From Isoptericola variabilis 225 (lineage in GTDB: Bacteria; Actinomycetota; Actinomycetes; Actinomycetales; Cellulomonadaceae): a stretch of DNA of 64,000 nt. The notes beneath the pieces are model-generated. The model made no database searches. It was not told where the DNA came from and worked only from the letters and a program-made list of their open reading frames with translations. This document shows positions 38,177 through 48,765 of this stretch, one piece after another. Every line of letters begins with the position of its first letter. The first letter of the stretch is position 1. A program made the position numbers and the translations under genes. The stretch is from positions 2,170,001-2,234,000 of the forward strand of contig NC_015588.1 of the NCBI RefSeq assembly GCF_000215105.1, written 5' to 3'.

Positions 38177-38318
38177 CGTCGCTGCAGTCGCCCCGAACTG
38201 GTTCGCGATAGCCGACACCGGCGCATTTCACGGAACCTGGCTCCGTTCGACGCACCCACTCCTAGGCTGGGTGTGCGGAGGAAGCGACCTGAAACCGGCT
38301 CTTCGCAGATGAGGGGGG

Positions 38319-39650
38319 TTACGGTGTGATTCCTCCGGCGACGAGGAGCATGCGGAGGCGGTAGTTGTCGCGGTTGCGGAAGCCGCGGGCGATGCGGCGG
38401 GCGAGCTCGATGATCCCGTTGATGGCCTCGGTGCCGCCGTTGGATGAGCGGCCGGTGTCGAAGTAGGCGAGGAACGCGGTGCGCCACTTGCGCAGGGTGC
38501 GTCCGAGGCGGGCGATCTCGGGGATCGGGCATGACGGCAAGGACGCCAGGACGCGCTCGGCCAGCCGGCGCCCGTGGGTCAGGTCCTTGCTCCGATAGGC
38601 GGTGCGGACCTCCTGGGCGGCCTGCCACGCGACCAGGACTTCCTCGTGGGCATCGTGGGCAGCGATGGCCCGGTTCAACCTGTTGATCTGTCGGTCGGTG
38701 AGGCGTTCGGGGGCGGCGCGCAGGATGTTGCGGATGCCGTAGAGCGGGTCGCCCTTGCGGCCTCGGTGCCCCAGGGTCTGCTGCTGGACCCGGCGGCGGA
38801 CCTCGTCGATCGCCTGGCCCGCGAGCTTGACCACGTGGAACGCGTCCAGCACCGCAGTCGCGTCCTCGAGCCGGTCGTCGATCGCGTTCTTGTAGCCGTG
38901 GAACGGGTCCAGGGTCGCGATCTGCACCCGGCCGCGGAACTCGGCCCCGCGCTCGTCCAGCCAGGAGGCGTAGACCGTGCCGGAACGGCCGGGCACCAGG
39001 TCCAGCAGCCGGGCGTGGGTGTTGCCCTCGCCGTCGCGGGTCAGGTCGACCATCCCGGTCAGCTCCTTGGGCCCACGGTCCTTCGGGCTGACGTGATGCC
39101 ACACGTGCTCGTCTACCCCGAGGGTCGTGACCGCTTCGAAGCGGGACTCGTCGTCGGCTGCATCGGCGAGTACGGGTCGGATCGCGTTCCAGCACGTCCA
39201 CCAGGACACCCCGGGCTGGCGGGCCAGTCCTGCGACCGACGCGTTCTCGGACCGCAGCTGGGCGATCGCCCACCGGGTCGCGCGCGACGTGAGCACGGCC
39301 CGCGGGGCGGCGATCTGAGCGTCCTGCTCGGTGAACGACCCGACCTCGCAGCCCGGATCCGGACAGGCCCACCGCCGCTTGCGCCACCGCAACCGGACCG
39401 GGCGCCCGAACGCCGGGGCATCGATCAGCTCGACCACCCGGCGGCCCTTCGACGCGGCGACCACGCCGCAGGCCGGGCAGCCCATCAGCCCGGGCGCCGA
39501 CTCGACGACCACGAACACGACGTCGTCGTCACGCTCGACGCCGATCACGTGCAACGACTCGAGCCCGACCAGCAGATCACAGCGCACGCAGTACGGATCA
39601 GCGGATCTTGGATCAGGGCAGCAGGACACACAGGCCGTAGGCTCGGACAC
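38319..39650 (-). CDS. ISL3 family transposase, copy 1
   Basis: A 443-residue intact DDE transposase. The N-terminal zinc-finger region has CVSCCPDP, CVRCDLLVGLE and GCPACGVVA, then a second finger (WACPDPGCEVGSF) and a helix-turn-helix region (ASVAGLARQPGVSWWTCWNAI). The catalytic core includes TLGVDEHVWH, TLDPFHGYKNAIDDRLEDATAVLDAFHVVKL and SSNGGTEAINGIIEL. It starts at GTG 39650, which directly abuts the inverted-repeat leader at 39651-39706. No Shine-Dalgarno sequence is visible outside that structure. Confidence 0.92.
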   Translation of the reverse strand: MSEPTACVSCCPDPRSADPYCVRCDLLVGLESLHVIGVERDDDVVFVVVESAPGLMGCPACGVVAASKGRRVVELIDAPAFGRPVRLRWRKRRWACPDPGCEVGSFTEQDAQIAAPRAVLTSRATRWAIAQLRSENASVAGLARQPGVSWWTCWNAIRPVLADAADDESRFEAVTTLGVDEHVWHHVSPKDRGPKELTGMVDLTRDGEGNTHARLLDLVPGRSGTVYASWLDERGAEFRGRVQIATLDPFHGYKNAIDDRLEDATAVLDAFHVVKLAGQAIDEVRRRVQQQTLGHRGRKGDPLYGIRNILRAAPERLTDRQINRLNRAIAAHDAHEEVLVAWQAAQEVRTAYRSKDLTHGRRLAERVLASLPSCPIPEIARLGRTLRKWRTAFLAYFDTGRSSNGGTEAINGIIELARRIARGFRNRDNYRLRMLLVAGGITP

Positions 39651-39706
39651 GTCGAGGCCTCTCGGGAACAGGATGCTTGGTCGCTCCCGATCCTGGAGGC
39701 CTCGAC
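39651..39706 (-). promoter_or_regulatory. Inverted-repeat leader at the transposase start, ISL3 copy 1
   Basis: Outer arms GTCGAGGCCTC and GAGGCCTCGAC pair perfectly. On the transposase strand the loop carries AGCGACCAAGCA. The structure ends exactly at the GTG start codon. The same core and layout occur in copies 2 and 3. Confidence 0.7.
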
Positions 39707-39846
39707 CCCTACCCCGACGTCACCACTACGCCCGGCGTGTCACCGGCCCCCCTCATCTGCGAAGAGCCCTGAAGGCTCTTCGGACTTTCGGGTGGGTTGA
39801 GGGTGTGACGCGACGCGCCGCGTAGAGGCGATGCGGGGAGATAGGG

Positions 39847-39903
39847 GTCGAGGTCCTCAGGATCAGTAGCGACCAAGCAACTGACGTATCCGAGGACCTC
39901 GAC
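39847..39903 (+). promoter_or_regulatory. Inverted-repeat leader at the transposase start, ISL3 copy 2
   Basis: Outer arms GTCGAGGTCCTC and GAGGACCTCGAC are perfect complements. An inner stem TCAGT/ACTGA holds the loop AGCGACCAAGCA. The structure ends one base before the GTG start at 39905. Confidence 0.7.
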
Positions 39904-39904
39904 G

Positions 39905-41240
39905 GTGGACCACCCTACGTCGTGCTGCGCTGCGCGCGGCACGTCCTACTGCCCTTCCTGCGACGAGCTGTTCGGCATCGACGGCCTGCACGTGACCGCG
40001 GTTCGTCGCCGTGACCAGAGTCTCGTCGTCACGGTCGAGACCGCCCCGCAGATCGAGGGCTGCCGCAGGTGCGGGGTGGTGGCCGTGGGCCACGGGCGCC
40101 GGGTCCGGCGCCTGCACGACGCCCCAGCCTTCGGCACGCCGGTGATCGTGGTGTGGCGGCGGCGCAGGTGGCGCTGCCCCGACCCGGACTGCCCGGCCGG
40201 CACGTTCGCCGAGGCCGTCCCCGACCTGGTGGTCGGCGGGGCAAAGCTGACGACCCGGGCGATCTGGTGGGCGATCAACCAGCTGCGCCGCGAGCACGCC
40301 TCCGGTCGCGGGGATCGCCCGCCAGCTCGGCGTGGACTGGCACACCCTGTGGAAGGCCGTCGAACCGGTCCTGGACGACCTCGCCACCGACGAGTCCCGC
40401 TTCACCGGCGTGACGGTCCTGGGCGTGGACGAGCACGTGTGGCACCACACCCCGCACCGGACCAAGGAGAAGGGCCCGAAGGAGATGACCGGCATAGTCG
40501 ACCTGACCCGCGACGACAAGGGCCGCACCCGCGCGAGGTTGCTCGACCTCGTCCCAGGGCGGTCGGGAAAGGTCTACGAGACCTGGCTCAAGGACCGCGG
40601 GGAGGCGTTCACGGCATGCGTGAAGGTCGCCACCCTCGACCCGTTCCGCGGGTACCAGAACGCGATCGACGCCGAGCTCGAGGACGCCGCCGCGGTCCTG
40701 GACGCCTTCCACGTGACTAAGCTCGGGGTCGACGTGGTCGACGAGGTCCGCCGCCGCGTCCAGCAGGACACCACCGGTCACCGCGGCCGCCGGGACGACC
40801 CGCTGTACAAGGTCCGCAACGTCCTGCGCGCCGGCGCCGACCGCCTCACCCAGCGGCAGTGGGACCGCCTCGAGCGCTACCTTCCGGCCGGTGACCCGCA
40901 CGGTGAGGTCTTCCTCGCCTGGCAGTGCTACCAGCGCCTGCGCTCGGTCTACCACCAGGTCGACCTGACCGCGGCGAAGAGAACCGCCGAGCAGATCGTC
41001 GACACCTTCCACACCTGCCCCGTCCCCGAGGTCGCCCGCCTCGGCCGCACCCTGCGCCGCTGGAAGGAGCAGTTCCTCGGCTACTTCACCACCAACCGCT
41101 CGACGAACGGCGGTACCGAGGCCCTCAACGGCGTCATCGAGCTCCACCGCCGCATCGCCCGCGGCTTCCGCAACAAGGACAACTACCGCCTACGAATGCT
41201 CCTCGTCGGAGGAGGACTCACCCACCAAAAACTCCGATGA
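39905..41240 (+). pseudogene. ISL3 family transposase, copy 2, single-base frameshift
   Basis: The N-terminal part from GTG 39905 (zinc fingers YCPSCDELFGIDGLHV, CRRCGVVAVGHG and RWRCPDPDCPAGTF) reads to REHAS at about 40300. There one extra base (region TCCGGTCGCG, 40301-40310) shifts the frame. In the next frame the protein continues VAGIARQLGVDWHTLWKAV, TVLGVDEHVWHH and LDAFHVTKLGVDVVDEVRRRVQQD through STNGGTEALNGVIELHRR to the stop at 41240. Copies 1 and 3 are continuous at this point, so this is a disabling mutation or sequencing error rather than programmed frameshifting. Confidence 0.85.
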
Positions 41241-41243
41241 GCC

Positions 41244-41572: not shown

Positions 41573-42475
41573 TCACGCAGCCTGAGTGGCTGGCGCGGTC
41601 ATGATGGTCTCGAACTCGATGGGGGTCAACCGCCCGAGAGTGGCCTGTCGACGGCGTCGGTGGTAGGTCCGTTCAATCCAGGTCACCATCGCGATCCGCA
41701 GCTCCTCGCAGGTGGCCCAGAGACGGCGATCCAGGACGTTCTTCTGCAGCAGTGCGAAGAAGCTCTCCATGGCGGCGTTGTCCCCGGCCGCGCCGACGCG
41801 GCCCATCGAGCCGACCATGCCGTGACGGTTGAGGGCACGCACGAATTTCCTGCTCCGAAACTGGGAGCCTCTGTCCGTGTGGACCACGCAGCCGGCGACA
41901 TCGCCGCGCCGAGCGACCGCGTTGTTCAGCGCCGCGACGGCCAAGCGAGACTTCATCCGCGAGTCGATGGAGTAGCCCACGATCCGGTTGGAGTAGATGT
42001 CCTTGAACGCACAGACGTAGAGCTTGCCTTCCGCGGTCCGGTGTTCGGTGATGTCGCCGATCCAGAGCTCGTTCGGCCCATCTGCGCTGAACTCGTGCCG
42101 GATCACGCCGTGCTTGTCGACCACCGCGCACAGGTCGTCGTGGACCGGCGGGCCGGGCTTCTTCGCCTTGCCTCGCTTGGGCTTGCCGAACGCCGACCAC
42201 CAGCCCAGCTGCGAGCAGATCCGCCACGCGGTCCGCTCGGCCATCGGCTCACCGGCGTCACGTGCTTCGTCGACGAGGAACCGGTAGCCGAACTCGGGGT
42301 CGTCCTTGTGCGCGTCGAACAGAGCGTTCGCCCGGTACGCCTCGGTCAGCTCGGCCTCGGTGACCGGTTCCCTCAGCCAGCGGTAGTAGGGCTGGCGAGC
42401 GATCTTGAGCACCCGGCACGTCACCGTGACGGGGATCCCGTCAACGGCCAGCTCGCGGACGAGCGGGTACATCAT
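41573..42475 (-). CDS. IS3 family transposase OrfB (DDE integrase domain)
   Basis: 300 residues. An N-terminal HTH_21-like part (CRVLKIARQPYYRWLREPV) precedes the rve core: IGDITEHRTAEGKLYVCAFKDIYSNRIVGYSI contains the first Asp, CVVHTDRGSQFRS the second, and DNAAMESFFALLQKNV the Glu of the DDE triad. ATG 42475 overlaps the orfA stop as ATGA. The run GGAAAATGATG at the overlap includes A-AAA, a usual site for -1 frameshifting to make the OrfAB transposase. Confidence 0.93.
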   Translation of the reverse strand: MMYPLVRELAVDGIPVTVTCRVLKIARQPYYRWLREPVTEAELTEAYRANALFDAHKDDPEFGYRFLVDEARDAGEPMAERTAWRICSQLGWWSAFGKPKRGKAKKPGPPVHDDLCAVVDKHGVIRHEFSADGPNELWIGDITEHRTAEGKLYVCAFKDIYSNRIVGYSIDSRMKSRLAVAALNNAVARRGDVAGCVVHTDRGSQFRSRKFVRALNRHGMVGSMGRVGAAGDNAAMESFFALLQKNVLDRRLWATCEELRIAMVTWIERTYHRRRRQATLGRLTPIEFETIMTAPATQAA

Positions 42476-42774
42476 TTTCCCGGCAGGTTGGCCTGTGACA
42501 GGTAGGCAGCCGCCCGGCGCAGGACCTCGTTCTCCTGCTCCAGGAGCCGGATCCTCTTCCTCGCTTCACGCAGCTCGGCGTTCTCAGTCGCGGTCGTGCC
42601 GGGCTTGGTGCCGTCCTCGACGTCGGCGGTCTTCAGCCAGTTCGTCAGGCACGACTCGCTGATGCCGAAGTCGGCAGCGATCTGCTTGAGGTGGACGCCC
42701 GGCTCACGGTTCCTCGCGACGCGGACGACGTCGTCGCGGAACTCCTTGGGGTACGGCTTCGGCACAGTGCACAT
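42472..42774 (-). CDS. IS3 family transposase OrfA (helix-turn-helix)
   Basis: 100 residues from ATG 42774 (MCTVPKPYPKEFRDDVVRVARNREPGV). The DNA-binding helix-turn-helix is HLKQIAADFGISESCLTNWLKTADV, followed by a leucine-rich coiled coil (AELREARKRIRLLEQENEVLRRAAAYL) used for multimerisation. It overlaps orfB by four bases and probably supplies the N-terminus of the fusion transposase. Confidence 0.92.
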   Translation of the reverse strand: MCTVPKPYPKEFRDDVVRVARNREPGVHLKQIAADFGISESCLTNWLKTADVEDGTKPGTTATENAELREARKRIRLLEQENEVLRRAAAYLSQANLPGK

Positions 42775-42838
42775 CCTTCCAGCAGTGCTCCTCAGCACCA
42801 CAGATCAGATGTCACCTGTGCGTGCAGCAGTCCCATGC

Positions 42839-45249: not shown

Positions 45250-45346
45250 CCCGGCCTCCTTCGACTGACGAATCTTTCGACGATCATAGTATCGGAGGGC
45301 GCTGCATGATGTGAAGAAGTCGGGCTCTTCGCCGATTCGGTGGGGA

Positions 45347-46666
45347 TCAGGGCGTGAGTCCTCCGCCGGCGAGGAGCATCCGTAGCCGGTAGTTGTCGCG
45401 GTTGCGGTAGCCGCGGGCTAGGCGACGGTGGAGCTCGATGATGCCGTTCATGGCCTCCGTGCCGCCGTTGCTCGATCGGCCGGTGGTGAAGTAGGCCAGG
45501 AACGCTTCGCGCCAGCGGCGCAGGGTCCGTCCGAGACGCGAGACCTCGGGGATCGGGCAGGTGTGGAAGGTCGCGAGGACCTTCTCGGCGCGTTGCTTTC
45601 CGTCCTGCAGGTCGGGTGCGCGGTAGGCGGCGCGCAGCTGCTGGGCGCGCTGCCAGGCGACGAGCACCTCCTCGTGGGCTTCGTCGGCCTCGATCGCCCG
45701 CGCCAGGCGGGCTCGCTGCTTGTCGGTGAGGTTCTCGGCTCCGGCACGCAGGATGGTCTGGATGCCGAACAGCGGGTCTCCCTTGCGGCCGCGATGACCG
45801 GTGGTGTCCTGCTGGACTCGGCGGCGCACCTCGTCGACCACGGCGGTGCCCAGCTTCACGACGTGGAACGCGTCCAGCACCGCGGTCGCATCGGCGAGCT
45901 GGTCGTCGATGGCGGACTTGTAGCCGCCGAACGGGTCCAACGCTGCGACATCGATCGCGGACTTGAAGTCGTCGCCGCGCGCGTCGAGCCAGTCGGCGTA
46001 GGCCTTCTTCGACCGGCCGGGCACCAGGTCCAGCAGCCGGGCGTGCACTCTGCCCTCGTGGTCCCGGGTGAGGTCGACCATCCCGGTCAGCTCCTTCGGG
46101 CCGCGCGCCTTCGGGTTTCCGTGGTGCCAGACGTGCTCGTCCACCCCGAGGCTGGTCACGCCCGTGAACCGGGACTCGTCGGCAGCGAGACGTTCGAGCT
46201 CGGGCTTCACTGCCCGCCACAGCGCCCACCACGACACCGCCAGGCGGCGCGCGAGGCTGCTGATGGTGGCGTGCTCGCGGCGCAATTGCCCGATCGCCCA
46301 CGTCACGGCCCGCGTGGTGATCGAGCCCCGGGCCGCCACGAGCGCCGGGACCTGCTCGGCGAACGTTCCGCGCGGGCAGGTAGCCTCCGGGCACCGCCAG
46401 ATCCGTTGCCGCCACACGAGCCGGACCCGGGCATCGCCATGCGGGACGTCGTGCAGGACCCGTCGTCGCCGTCCCCGGCTCGGGGCCACGACCCCGCAGT
46501 CCGGGCAGCCCTCCAACCGCCACGGCGTCGAGACGGTCACCGTCATCAACGTCTCGGTCCGTTCGACCGTCTCGACCTGCACGCCGGGCAGTCCCAGCAA
46601 GAGGTCACAGCGCGAACACGGGTCAGTGGTGGTGGGCGCGCCAGCGCACCCCGTAGCGTTGGACAA
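45347..46666 (-). CDS. ISL3 family transposase, copy 3
   Basis: 439 residues, uninterrupted. Zinc-finger parts are CSRCDLLLGLPGVQV, GCPDCGVVAPSRG and WRCPEATCPRGTF. A helix-turn-helix region (ATISSLARRLAVSWWALWRAV) precedes the DDE core (TSLGVDEHVWHH, AALDPFGGYKSAIDDQLADATAVLDAFHVVKLG, SSNGGTEAMNGIIELHRR). It is clearly homologous to, but well diverged from, copies 1 and 2, so the three arrived separately. The start is TTG 46666, two nucleotides after the inverted-repeat leader. Confidence 0.92.
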   Translation of the reverse strand: MSNATGCAGAPTTTDPCSRCDLLLGLPGVQVETVERTETLMTVTVSTPWRLEGCPDCGVVAPSRGRRRRVLHDVPHGDARVRLVWRQRIWRCPEATCPRGTFAEQVPALVAARGSITTRAVTWAIGQLRREHATISSLARRLAVSWWALWRAVKPELERLAADESRFTGVTSLGVDEHVWHHGNPKARGPKELTGMVDLTRDHEGRVHARLLDLVPGRSKKAYADWLDARGDDFKSAIDVAALDPFGGYKSAIDDQLADATAVLDAFHVVKLGTAVVDEVRRRVQQDTTGHRGRKGDPLFGIQTILRAGAENLTDKQRARLARAIEADEAHEEVLVAWQRAQQLRAAYRAPDLQDGKQRAEKVLATFHTCPIPEVSRLGRTLRRWREAFLAYFTTGRSSNGGTEAMNGIIELHRRLARGYRNRDNYRLRMLLAGGGLTP

Positions 46667-46667
46667 C

Positions 46668-46727
46668 GTCGAGGTCCTCGAGATCGATCAGGTTGCTTGG
46701 TCGCTCCTGATCATCGGGGACCTCGAC
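46668..46727 (-). promoter_or_regulatory. Inverted-repeat leader at the transposase start, ISL3 copy 3
   Basis: Outer arms GTCGAGGTCC and GGACCTCGAC are complementary. On the transposase strand an inner stem GATCAGG/CCTGATC encloses AGCGACCAAGCAA. It ends one base before the TTG start codon. Confidence 0.7.
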
Positions 46728-46812
46728 CCCTACACCCAGGCCATCACGCCGCCGTCGTCACTCCCCACCGGATCGGCGAAGAGCCACCGCCGCGACCGGT
46801 ACCACTGAGGGA

Positions 46813-48765
46813 TTGGTGCCAGCGATCTCCTACCTGCGGGTCTCCACGAAAGACCAGGCCAGCCGCTACGGGCAAGAAGAAGGCCTGTCCATCCCCGCTC
46901 AACGGGAAGCCGCGCAGCGCAAGGCCGAACAGCTCGGCGCGGTCATCGTCAAAGAGTTCATCGAACCCGGCGAATCCGCCAAGTCCGCCAGACGGCGCGC
47001 CTTGCAGGAGATGCTCGACTACATCGCTGCGAACCCTGTCCGCTACTGCATCATCAACAAGGTCGACCGGATCGCCCGCAATCGCCTCGACGACGCGATC
47101 ATCCACGCCACGCTCCGCGGAGCGAACACCACCCTCGTGTCGGTGACAGAGAACATCGACGAGACCCCGTCGGGCATGCTCATGCACGGCATCCTCGCCT
47201 CGATGGCCGAGTTCTACTCCCTCAACCTCGCCCAAGAGGTCATCAAGGGCATGACCCAGAAGGCCACCATCGGCGGCACCCCCACCAAGGCGCCGCTCGG
47301 GTATCTGAACGTGCGTACCACCGACGCCAAGGGCCGCGAGATCCGCGACATCGCCATCGACCCCGACCGGGCCGACCTGATCCGTTTCGCGTTCACCGCC
47401 TACGCCACCGGGGACTGGTCACTGTCCTCCCTAGCCAAGGAACTCAACGCGCGAGGTCTCACCACGCGGCCTACACCGGCACAGCCGGCCCGGCTGATCA
47501 CGACCACCACGCTTCACAAGGTGCTGACCAACCCTTACTACCAAGGCACAGTCACCTTCCGCGGCCTCACCTACGACGGCGCTCACACCCCGCTCGTCGA
47601 CTCCGAGACCTGGATCCGAGTCCAGGCCCAGCTCGACGCGAAGAACGCCGTCGGCGAACGGCCCCAGAAGTACGACCACTACCTCAAAGGCTCCCTGTAC
47701 TGCTCCTGCGGCGCGAAGCTCATGATCGAACGGCCCCGCGACAAGAACGGCAACCGGTACGAGTACTTCACCTGTTCCGGACGGCGCCGCAAGCGCACCC
47801 CCTGCATCCGCTCCGCGATCCTCGCAGAGCGGATCGAGCAGCGCATCGAAGCCACCTACAACACCAACGGCCTCACCAAGAACGAAGCCGAACGGGTACA
47901 GGGCGTGCTGCGCCGGGTGTTCGACCAGCTCGAAGCCACCAGCGACGACGAACGCAAGCTCCTCGAAGCCCAGAAGGACAAGCTCGAAGCAGAACGACTC
48001 AAGCTCGTCCAGGCCCACTACGCCGACGCGATCCCTCTGGACCTGCTCAAGAGCGAGCAGGAACGCATCCGCACCGGCCTCGACCAGATCACCAGACGCC
48101 TCGACACCATGACGGCCACCTATACCGGCGCCCGGGACGGTCTCGACGAGCTCCTTGACCTGCTTACCGACCTCGGCGATCTCTACAACCGATGCGAACC
48201 CGCTGAACGCCGCATGCTCAACCGAGCCCTGTTCGACCGCATCATCATCGACGAGGACGAGAACATCAGCGTCGTCCCTGCCGAGCCCGCCGCCAGCGTC
48301 CTCGCCCACGTCAACACCGATGTCCCCGAGCCGGTGACCGCAGAAACGAACCTGCCCCGCACTCAGGCGGGGCAGGTTTCGATTTGCTCAACTTACGTGG
48401 AGCTGAGGGGACTCGAACCCCTGACCCCCTGCATGCCATGCAGGTGCGCTACCAGCTGCGCCACAGCCCCGAGAACCGACTCTCGCCGTGGCGATTCGTC
48501 TGATTCGGTGCGTTCCTCCCGGGTTGCCCCGCGGGAACGTCGATATCTTAGGCAGACTTGGTCTCAGGTTCCAAATTCCAGTCGGGCCCCGCCTGCCACC
48601 GGTCGAGCGGGTAGCCGGCGCCCACGTTGTGGGCCACGAGCCGCCACTCCGGCACGGCGTCGGCGCCGTACCGGTGCAGGTGGGACCAGTGCACGTTGTG
48701 CACGCCCGCGATGCCGCGCCACCCGTCCACGTCGATCCCGAGCAGCGTCGTCACGGCGAGCGTGA
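46813..48765 (+). CDS. Large serine recombinase/integrase running through its tRNA attachment site
   Basis: The N-terminal resolvase domain has the catalytic Ser in SYLRVSTKDQASRYGQEEGLSIPAQR and the Arg motif in INKVDRIARNRLDD. The recombinase domain follows (PLGYLNVRTTDAKGREI), then a zinc ribbon (YCSCGAKLMIERP to FTCSGRRRKRTPC) and a long coiled coil (about residues 370-440). After residue 515 or so the frame enters the terminator and tRNA-Ala gene as RGLEPLTPCMPC and then reads antisense of the phosphatase gene to 48765. A C-terminus formed from attR is typical of integrases of this type. The start is TTG 46813 or GTG 46816 with GAGGG upstream. ISL3 copy 3 ends 28 bases before it. Confidence 0.88.
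   Translation: MVPAISYLRVSTKDQASRYGQEEGLSIPAQREAAQRKAEQLGAVIVKEFIEPGESAKSARRRALQEMLDYIAANPVRYCIINKVDRIARNRLDDAIIHATLRGANTTLVSVTENIDETPSGMLMHGILASMAEFYSLNLAQEVIKGMTQKATIGGTPTKAPLGYLNVRTTDAKGREIRDIAIDPDRADLIRFAFTAYATGDWSLSSLAKELNARGLTTRPTPAQPARLITTTTLHKVLTNPYYQGTVTFRGLTYDGAHTPLVDSETWIRVQAQLDAKNAVGERPQKYDHYLKGSLYCSCGAKLMIERPRDKNGNRYEYFTCSGRRRKRTPCIRSAILAERIEQRIEATYNTNGLTKNEAERVQGVLRRVFDQLEATSDDERKLLEAQKDKLEAERLKLVQAHYADAIPLDLLKSEQERIRTGLDQITRRLDTMTATYTGARDGLDELLDLLTDLGDLYNRCEPAERRMLNRALFDRIIIDEDENISVVPAEPAASVLAHVNTDVPEPVTAETNLPRTQAGQVSICSTYVELRGLEPLTPCMPCRCATSCATAPRTDSRRGDSSDSVRSSRVAPRERRYLRQTWSQVPNSSRAPPATGRAGSRRPRCGPRAATPARRRRRTGAGGTSARCARPRCRATRPRRSRAASSRRA
48349..48378 (-). terminator. Hairpin terminator downstream of tRNA-Ala
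   Basis: AACCTGCCCCGC and GCGGGGCAGGTT pair perfectly (12 bp) around a 6-base loop. On the tRNA strand it begins 20 bases after the tRNA 3' end and is followed by TCGTTTCT. It lies inside the recombinase reading frame, so the integrase tail is encoded by terminator DNA. Confidence 0.75.
48398..48470 (-). tRNA. tRNA-Ala (anticodon GGC)
   Basis: 73 nt that fold into a complete cloverleaf: acceptor GGGGCTG/CAGCTCC, D stem GCGC/GCGC, anticodon stem CCTGC/GCAGG with loop ATGGCAT (anticodon GGC), T stem AGGGG/CCCCT with TTCGAGT, discriminator A. The G3-U70 wobble pair, the alanine identity element, is present. CCA is not encoded. The gene lies just downstream of the rsfS-phosphatase cluster on the same strand and serves as the integration site of the recombinase element. 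Confidence 0.97.

Follow-up and report, generated by a model that had tools for sequence, protein, structure and literature searches.

A hairpin leader and a fixed antisense -10 hexamer at ISL3 transposase genes suggest IS10-like antisense control

Three ISL3 elements with hairpin leaders in Isoptericola variabilis 225

The window, by which we mean the whole 64,000-nucleotide stretch of Isoptericola variabilis 225 DNA analysed here, contains three ISL3 insertion sequences, each with a hairpin leader at the start codon of its transposase gene. The features of the three copies are listed with their basis in brackets.

38297..39768, minus strand: ISL3 element copy 1, terminal repeats at 38297-38318 and 39747-39768 (sequence)
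38319..39650, minus strand: transposase of copy 1, GTG start at 39650 (ORF list and Pfam)
39651..39706, minus strand: 56-nt hairpin in the leader of copy 1, 0 nt upstream of the start codon (sequence, folding and covariance model)
39658..39663, minus strand: Shine-Dalgarno (SD)-like GAGAGG in the 3' arm, copy 1 (sequence; relatives' statistics)
39638..39643, plus strand: antisense -10 hexamer TAGGCT (putative pOUT) in codons 3-5, copy 1 (sequence and conservation)
39690..39695, minus strand: sense -10-like CAGGAT (putative pIN) in the 5' arm, copy 1 (sequence; relatives' statistics)
39774..41243, plus strand: ISL3 element copy 2, transposase frameshifted (sequence, ORFs)
39847..39903, plus strand: 57-nt hairpin in the leader of copy 2, 1 nt upstream of GTG 39905 (sequence, folding and covariance model)
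39892..39896, plus strand: SD-like GAGGA in the 3' arm, copy 2 (sequence)
39912..39917, minus strand: putative antisense -10 TAGGGT, copy 2 (sequence and conservation)
39858..39863, plus strand: sense -10-like CAGGAT in the 5' arm, copy 2 (sequence; relatives' statistics)
45323..46785, minus strand: ISL3 element copy 3 (sequence and Pfam)
45347..46666, minus strand: transposase of copy 3, TTG start at 46666 (ORF list and Pfam)
46668..46727, minus strand: 60-nt hairpin in the leader of copy 3, 1 nt upstream of the start codon (sequence, folding and covariance model)
46675..46679, minus strand: SD-like GAGGA in the 3' arm, copy 3 (sequence)
46654..46659, plus strand: putative antisense -10 TAGCGT, copy 3 (sequence and conservation)
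46710..46715, minus strand: sense -10-like GATGAT in the 5' arm, copy 3 (sequence; relatives' statistics)

According to the first-pass annotation of this DNA, each hairpin immediately precedes the start codon of one of three ISL3 transposase genes. The placement holds in all three copies, the hairpins ending 0, 1 and 1 nt from GTG 39650, GTG 39905 and TTG 46666, respectively. All three transposases match Pfam ISL3 domains as well, with the correction that the transposase of copy 2 is frameshifted and lies in two pieces. Those of copies 1 and 3 carry PF01610, PF13542 and PF14690 (in copy 3 the PF14690 score is slightly below its cut-off), and in copy 2 the PF14690 and PF01610 matches are spread over the two overlapping ORFs created by the frameshift, 39905-40720 and 40332-41240. 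Copy 2 probably makes no full transposase, and it retains both leader and antisense hexamer. The terminal inverted repeat GGCTCTTC is found at 38297/39768 in copy 1 and at 45323/46785 in copy 3; copy 2 has GGCTCTTC at its start, 39774, and GATGAGCC, one base off and overlapping the stop codon, at its end, 41243.

An Rfam search of the window returned only a tRNA at gathering score and no family fitting the leaders; two matches near the leaders of copies 1 and 2 were far below gathering score (E-values of 0.67 and 3). The leader is a candidate RNA family without a match in the Rfam copy searched. Elsewhere in the neighbourhood, two overlapping ORFs on the minus strand (41573-42801) resemble an IS3-type transposase pair, and a long ORF beside copy 3 (46813-48765), recombinase-like by eye, overlaps a tRNA gene on the opposite strand (48398-48470); ORF and tRNA are possibly the end of an integrated element.

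The leader hairpin is real and recurs among ISL3 elements

As judged by RNA folding, the leaders of copies 1-3 have z-scores of -4.1, -4.7 and -4.4, with 0 of 200 shuffles folding as well in each case. The antisense strands of the same segments also fold better than all 200 shuffles (z-scores of -3.1, -5.0 and -4.1).

Relatives were drawn from 244 sequences, comprising ISL3 genes from genomes and from named contigs and including copy 2 of the window. A hairpin candidate was present in 240 of these (two had no tblastn hit and two no hairpin), and 206 were kept after the exclusion of 7 with low scores and 27 that failed the start-codon rule, several of them through another local hairpin having been picked. 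The 206 reduce to 145 unique leaders and, with the chance hit L160 removed, to 102 nonredundant ones (<85% leader identity); without L071, L074 and L225, which have mis-called starts, 99 remain. A wider set holds 81 representatives, L289 and L074 having been removed from it.

A stem score of at least 16.5 is reached by 115 of the 145 unique leaders versus 13 of 166 control segments, and a score of at least 18 by 35 leaders versus no control, while a threshold of 15 discriminates badly (142/145 versus 64/166). In 120 of the 145, a gap of 0-1 nt separates the hairpin from the start codon. When stem, in-frame start codon and the antisense hexamer described below are combined – the combination that we refer to as the detector – only 2 of 772 control positions qualify. 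Scanning both strands of the window for stem plus hexamer gave nine matches, and a start codon was present as well only at the three leaders. The leader hairpins are real in all three copies and recur across a large branch of ISL3.

Pairing is kept while the loop varies

The first-pass annotation had proposed that pairing rather than sequence is kept in the stem, and the relatives bear this out: on a tree of the 99 leaders, 21 branch events alter both partners of a pair with pairing kept, so that 21 compensatory double changes fall on the stem diagonal versus 0-2 on the neighbouring, shifted ones. With a tree-based null limited to the stem, a home-made substitute for R-scape, E falls below 0.05 for four of the 13 stem pairs (99 leaders); when all column pairs are admitted, the best stem pairs reach E-values of 0.1-0.3 and the top pair, 26-39, is a non-stem one. 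Among 49 diverse leaders, two-sided changes occur at 8 of the 11 outer pairs, and 54 cells are altered on both sides versus a shuffle mean of 20.3 and 2-18 for slid structures. Between subfamilies the arm sequences are wholly different and yet pair, and since these arms were located by searching for pairing, the weight of this comparison rests on the control positions (2/772). Taken as a pattern of substitutions, the stem pairing is under selection.

Across the 3.31-Mb genome the 12-mer loop AGCGACCAAGCA has three exact occurrences, one at each of these leaders; other ISL3 copies in the same genome carry AGCGCCAACC or TTGCGACCAAGCA. Its supposed invariance extends to the three copies of the window, where it is identical, but not to the nonredundant relatives, only 12 of 99 of which carry it exactly, and the loop is ruled out as an invariant recognition motif. 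The annotation had staked the structure on covariation and on the presence of the loop motif in relatives; covariation was found, whereas the motif is missing in 87 of the 99. Its suggestion of an RNA switch gained no support as far as a ligand-type switch is concerned, the loop varying between subfamilies. By eye, a U-turn (YUNR) can be seen in the antisense loop of several subfamilies and is missing in others, and we make no claim of it.

A -10 hexamer is fixed on the opposite strand of codons 3-5

Three positions are strongly fixed within the first 42 coding bases, start codon aside: A at +8 (93%), T at +12 (94%) and A at +13 (92%). Read on the opposite strand, codons 3-5 spell TANNNT at +8 in 93 of the 102 nonredundant leaders, with the next-best register reached in 3 of 102. 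TANNNT is the -10 element of sigma70 promoters. The T at +12 is the wobble base of codon 4, and it is T in 94% of cases regardless of the amino acid, being kept with Ala, Pro, Ser, His, Cys, Thr, Leu, Phe and others; the share of wobble T in codons 15-59 is 13.6%. The coding oddity of a codon 4 that nearly always ends in T would be accounted for by an antisense promoter.

The hexamer is kept in 37 of 40 leaders with local tblastn identity below 45%, identity classes that refer to local pieces, often to the N-terminus alone. Plasmid relatives (L247-L251, 28-35% identity) show it by eye as well; in three others (L246, L252 and L254) it lies one codon off the annotated start at an unchanged distance from the hairpin. 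In 37 of the 102 leaders there is a sense TANNNT that shares T+12 and A+13, so part of the signal is open to another reading, and the antisense -35 is weak (at the best spacer, 18, at least 4 of 6 matches in 20 of 93). The hexamer, which lies outside the palindrome, had been overlooked in the first-pass annotation.

At the standard distance from -10 to start, antisense transcription would begin at the start codon (predicted at ~39650 in copy 1 and ~46666 in copy 3), and the hairpin would therefore be transcribed as antisense RNA. A U-run terminator downstream of the antisense hairpin was considered and set aside as a feature of few leaders: a sense A-run of at least three, the counterpart of a U-run following the antisense hairpin, is present in only 2 of 99. 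Three individual leaders (L248, L251 and L199) do have a sense A-run before the hairpin, that is, an intrinsic-terminator-like U-run after the antisense hairpin.

SD-like and -10-like sequences in the arms of the hairpin

According to the first-pass annotation, no normal ribosome-binding site is visible outside the hairpin; what it had overlooked is that one can be read inside, in the 3' arm, as GAGAGG (7 nt upstream of the start codon) in copy 1 and GAGGA (8 nt upstream) in copies 2 and 3. SD-like matches occur in 76 of the 99 leaders versus 17.3 expected from shuffles, an unspecific enrichment in that other windows of the G-rich leader match in 10-88 of 99. The mean unpaired probability of the SD window is 0.21 in the full leader versus 0.47 if the RNA starts in the loop; it falls below 0.1 in only 13 of 99 leaders, and the start codon is unmasked (mean unpaired probability of 0.57). 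The proposal that the leader restricts transposase translation is plausible because the SD-like sequence sits in the 3' arm.

The 5' arm carries NANRAT (GAGGAT, GATGAT or CAGGAT) in 88 of the 99 leaders versus 6.0 expected, and mirrored in 8 of 99. In the wider set of 81 representatives, 5'-arm NANNNT is found in 74 (37.9 expected) and its mirror in 29 (34.3 expected). The hexamer lacks the T at position 1 in nearly all 99 leaders, and a complete TANNNT in sense orientation is found in the 5' arm of 6 of the 81 wider-set representatives, not above shuffling (9.1); the six elements (L256, L259, L261, L265, L272 and L273) are all distant ones. A -35 for the sense hexamer was absent, at most 4 of 88 leaders having 4 of 6 matches at any spacer. 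Used as a -10 element, the hexamer would start the mRNA 4.5 nt before the hairpin midpoint (88 leaders; ~39683 in copy 1 and ~46703 in copy 3), with a predicted sense/antisense overlap of median 34 nt (88 leaders). Because no -35 accompanies it, the sense promoter is the weakest and least certain step of the antisense reading that we put forward below.

An ordinary sense promoter between the terminal repeat and the hairpin was rejected, TANNNT being found there in only 6 of 97 leaders versus 35.8 expected under mononucleotide shuffling. In the leaders generally, the sense strand of the 75 nt before the hairpin is G-rich and TANNNT-poor.

A probable IS10-like antisense brake on the transposase

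The hairpin with its compensatory pairing, the antisense -10 in fixed register, the sense -10-like hexamer and the SD-like sequence of the 3' arm all emerge from the sequence statistics above. We propose that they are probably parts of one antisense control module, a brake on the transposase that resembles that of IS10 but sits in an IS family unrelated to it. An antisense RNA would be fired at the start codon by a sigma70-type promoter whose -10 lies on the opposite strand within codons 3-5; transcription would run outward through the palindrome and yield a stable, RNA-OUT-like hairpin RNA of perhaps 60-70 nt. The RNA-IN-like transposase mRNA would begin in the loop, from the weak -10-like hexamer of the 5' arm, and carry the loop, the 3' arm, the SD and the start codon, with ~34 nt of overlap between it and the antisense RNA. 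Base pairing between these RNAs would block ribosome binding, and repression would rise with IS copy number. Read-in transcripts from outside would hold the whole palindrome, whose fold would mask most of the SD. Working promoters, start sites at the usual distance, the antisense length, the pairing between the RNAs and the effect on transposition are predictions of this proposal. That the antisense RNA represses translation we infer from the match to the IS10 geometry and from the outward promoters reported for IS1411.

IS10 is an IS4-type element, ISPpu9 belongs to the IS110 family, and IS200 differs from the ISL3 leader module in transposase class and layout. The transposases of the window match ISL3 Pfam families, which places them outside IS10. 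According to the passages covered, RNA-OUT of IS10 is 69 nt long and complementary to RNA-IN over its first 35 nt, and pIN, the promoter of the sense RNA, is atypically weak (PMC5006887, PMC1994261). The ISL3 leader would share with IS10/Tn10 an outward antisense promoter near the transposase start, an antisense RNA over the ribosome-binding region and a weak sense promoter, and its predicted overlap of 34 nt compares with the 35 nt of RNA-IN/RNA-OUT. It differs in its transposase and in where its putative promoters lie: codons 3-5 house the antisense -10, and the 5' arm holds the sense -10-like hexamer.

A review, in the parts covered, names IS10, IS1999, IS30 and IS200 as insertion sequences with antisense promoters, and describes IS200 tnpA as controlled by a cis-encoded sRNA together with mRNA secondary structure, a combination of leader structure and antisense RNA akin to the one proposed here; IS30 and IS1999 share the promoter antisense to the transposase within the IS, which in IS30, unlike the ISL3 leader, lies mid-element (PMC9330008). 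In ISPpu9, the antisense RNA is likewise directed against a structured transposase 5' leader (Asr9/Ssr9), but Asr9 appears, from the passages covered, to help translation (PMC8450116); we count this against a brake, since antisense RNA aimed at a structured leader is evidently able to activate. Within ISL3 itself, IS1411 and ISPfr2, read from plasmid records, have the hairpin and the antisense hexamer; in IS1411 the same layout is seen by eye, with antisense TAAGAT and a less regular stem that the detector misses. Outward-directed promoters are reported for the left end of IS1411 in secondary mentions (PMC3485313, PMC9330008), and the literature passages covered make no mention of antisense control in IS1411 or ISPfr2. 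Our literature search, spanning titles, starts of abstracts and passages, returned no description of this ISL3 module, a result that speaks for those parts of the sources and not for absence from print.

Could the palindrome serve read-through protection alone, masking in the sense mRNA the SD of transcripts that come from outside, with the antisense hexamer used otherwise? The SD-like sequence in the 3' arm, its lower unpaired probability in the full leader than after a loop start (0.21 versus 0.47), the folding z-scores and the scarcity of upstream sense TANNNT are all as such a function would have it. It leaves unexplained, however, why antisense TANNNT is fixed (93/102) and why NANRAT is one-sided, and we regard it as unlikely. 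We give still smaller odds to an outward promoter selected for transcription of neighbours or for transposition itself, the hairpin being its 5' leader or terminator: the hexamer does point outward, such promoters are reported for the left end of IS1411 in the mentions cited above, and the A-run of L199 would yield a U-run after the antisense hairpin, but IS neighbours are arbitrary, and neither the palindrome on the SD and start codon nor the predicted 34-nt overlap would be explained.

The autoregulatory DNA palindrome bound by the transposase that the first-pass annotation had offered is very improbable in the light of the relatives. Dyad symmetry adjoining the start codon would suit it; the arms, however, are wholly different between subfamilies, even though 74 of 97 leaders carry an exact terminal repeat GGCTCTTC. 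The element is also asymmetric, with NANRAT in 88/99 5' arms and mirrored in 8/99, and the fixed antisense hexamer lies outside the palindrome. Finally, pairing of CTAC in codons 4-5 with an upstream GTAG, which would lengthen the sense hairpin around the start codon and do away with the antisense promoter, is barely credible and was rejected, for although the minimum-energy folds of copies 1 and 3 close around the start codon, the hexamer is kept regardless of the upstream TAG (in 41 of 44 leaders without it and 52 of 55 with it) and A at +8 goes unexplained.

Extent of the module and its remnants

Of 213 loci that contain an ISL3 ORF, 159 are detector-positive, as are 83 of 114 representatives. 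These concentrate in one large branch, which contains IS1411 (78 of 95 rows); the other branch has 5 of 19 rows, one of them discounted. L244 (IS1411), L248 and L159 were missed by the detector and are read as true cases. On the tree of 114 rows, the presence label needs 21 changes, 16 of them forced by well-supported branches, versus a shuffled mean of 27.4 (0 of 500 shuffles as low), a count that mixes losses, decay, misses and several origins.

Among distant ISL3 elements of Bacillota and Pseudomonadota, the layout was not seen in six of the seven read (Halomonas, ISAtc2, Planococcus, L. paracasei L290, ISSm4 and ISPpu12). L289 from L. paracasei is detector-positive, yet irregular and out of register, and was counted as chance. 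Both Lacticaseibacillus paracasei leaders, L289 and L290, fold better than shuffles (z-scores of -2.3 and -3.3) and may hold another structure; the other five distant leaders read fold no better than shuffles.

Whether the wider picture holds we regard as an even call: a large ISL3 branch, from Actinomycetota to Pseudomonas (IS1411), would carry an ancient RNA-IN/RNA-OUT module that arose independently of IS10 yet comes very close to it in geometry, its antisense promoter lying in codons 3-5 and its sense promoter in the 5' arm, and truncated remnants that keep the module may repress intact copies in trans. If the antisense reading proposed above is right, the ISL3 module would be a further, widespread case of antisense control in an insertion sequence. 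It would have converged on the geometry of IS10, and it would explain what keeps ISL3 copies silent in high-GC Gram-positives.

Searched with a covariance model built on the leader, 94 of 220 genomes of the window's family have matches at E<=0.01 and 73 of 220 at E<=1e-4, the E-values being rough. Fifteen leader matches were chosen for lacking a full transposase and are not a random sample of the covariance matches; transposase fragments lie near 10 of them. By eye, the antisense hexamer is kept in 11 of these 15 remnants (L297, L298 and L300-L312). One, L303, is apparently internally deleted, an N-terminal piece being followed directly by a C-terminal piece. In six remnants (L298, L301, L302, L303, L306 and L307) the left end reads GGCTC(A/G)TC instead of GGCTCTTC, with the same base changed (one mismatch allowed), and the right end of copy 2, GATGAGCC, is the variant that matches the left end of those six.
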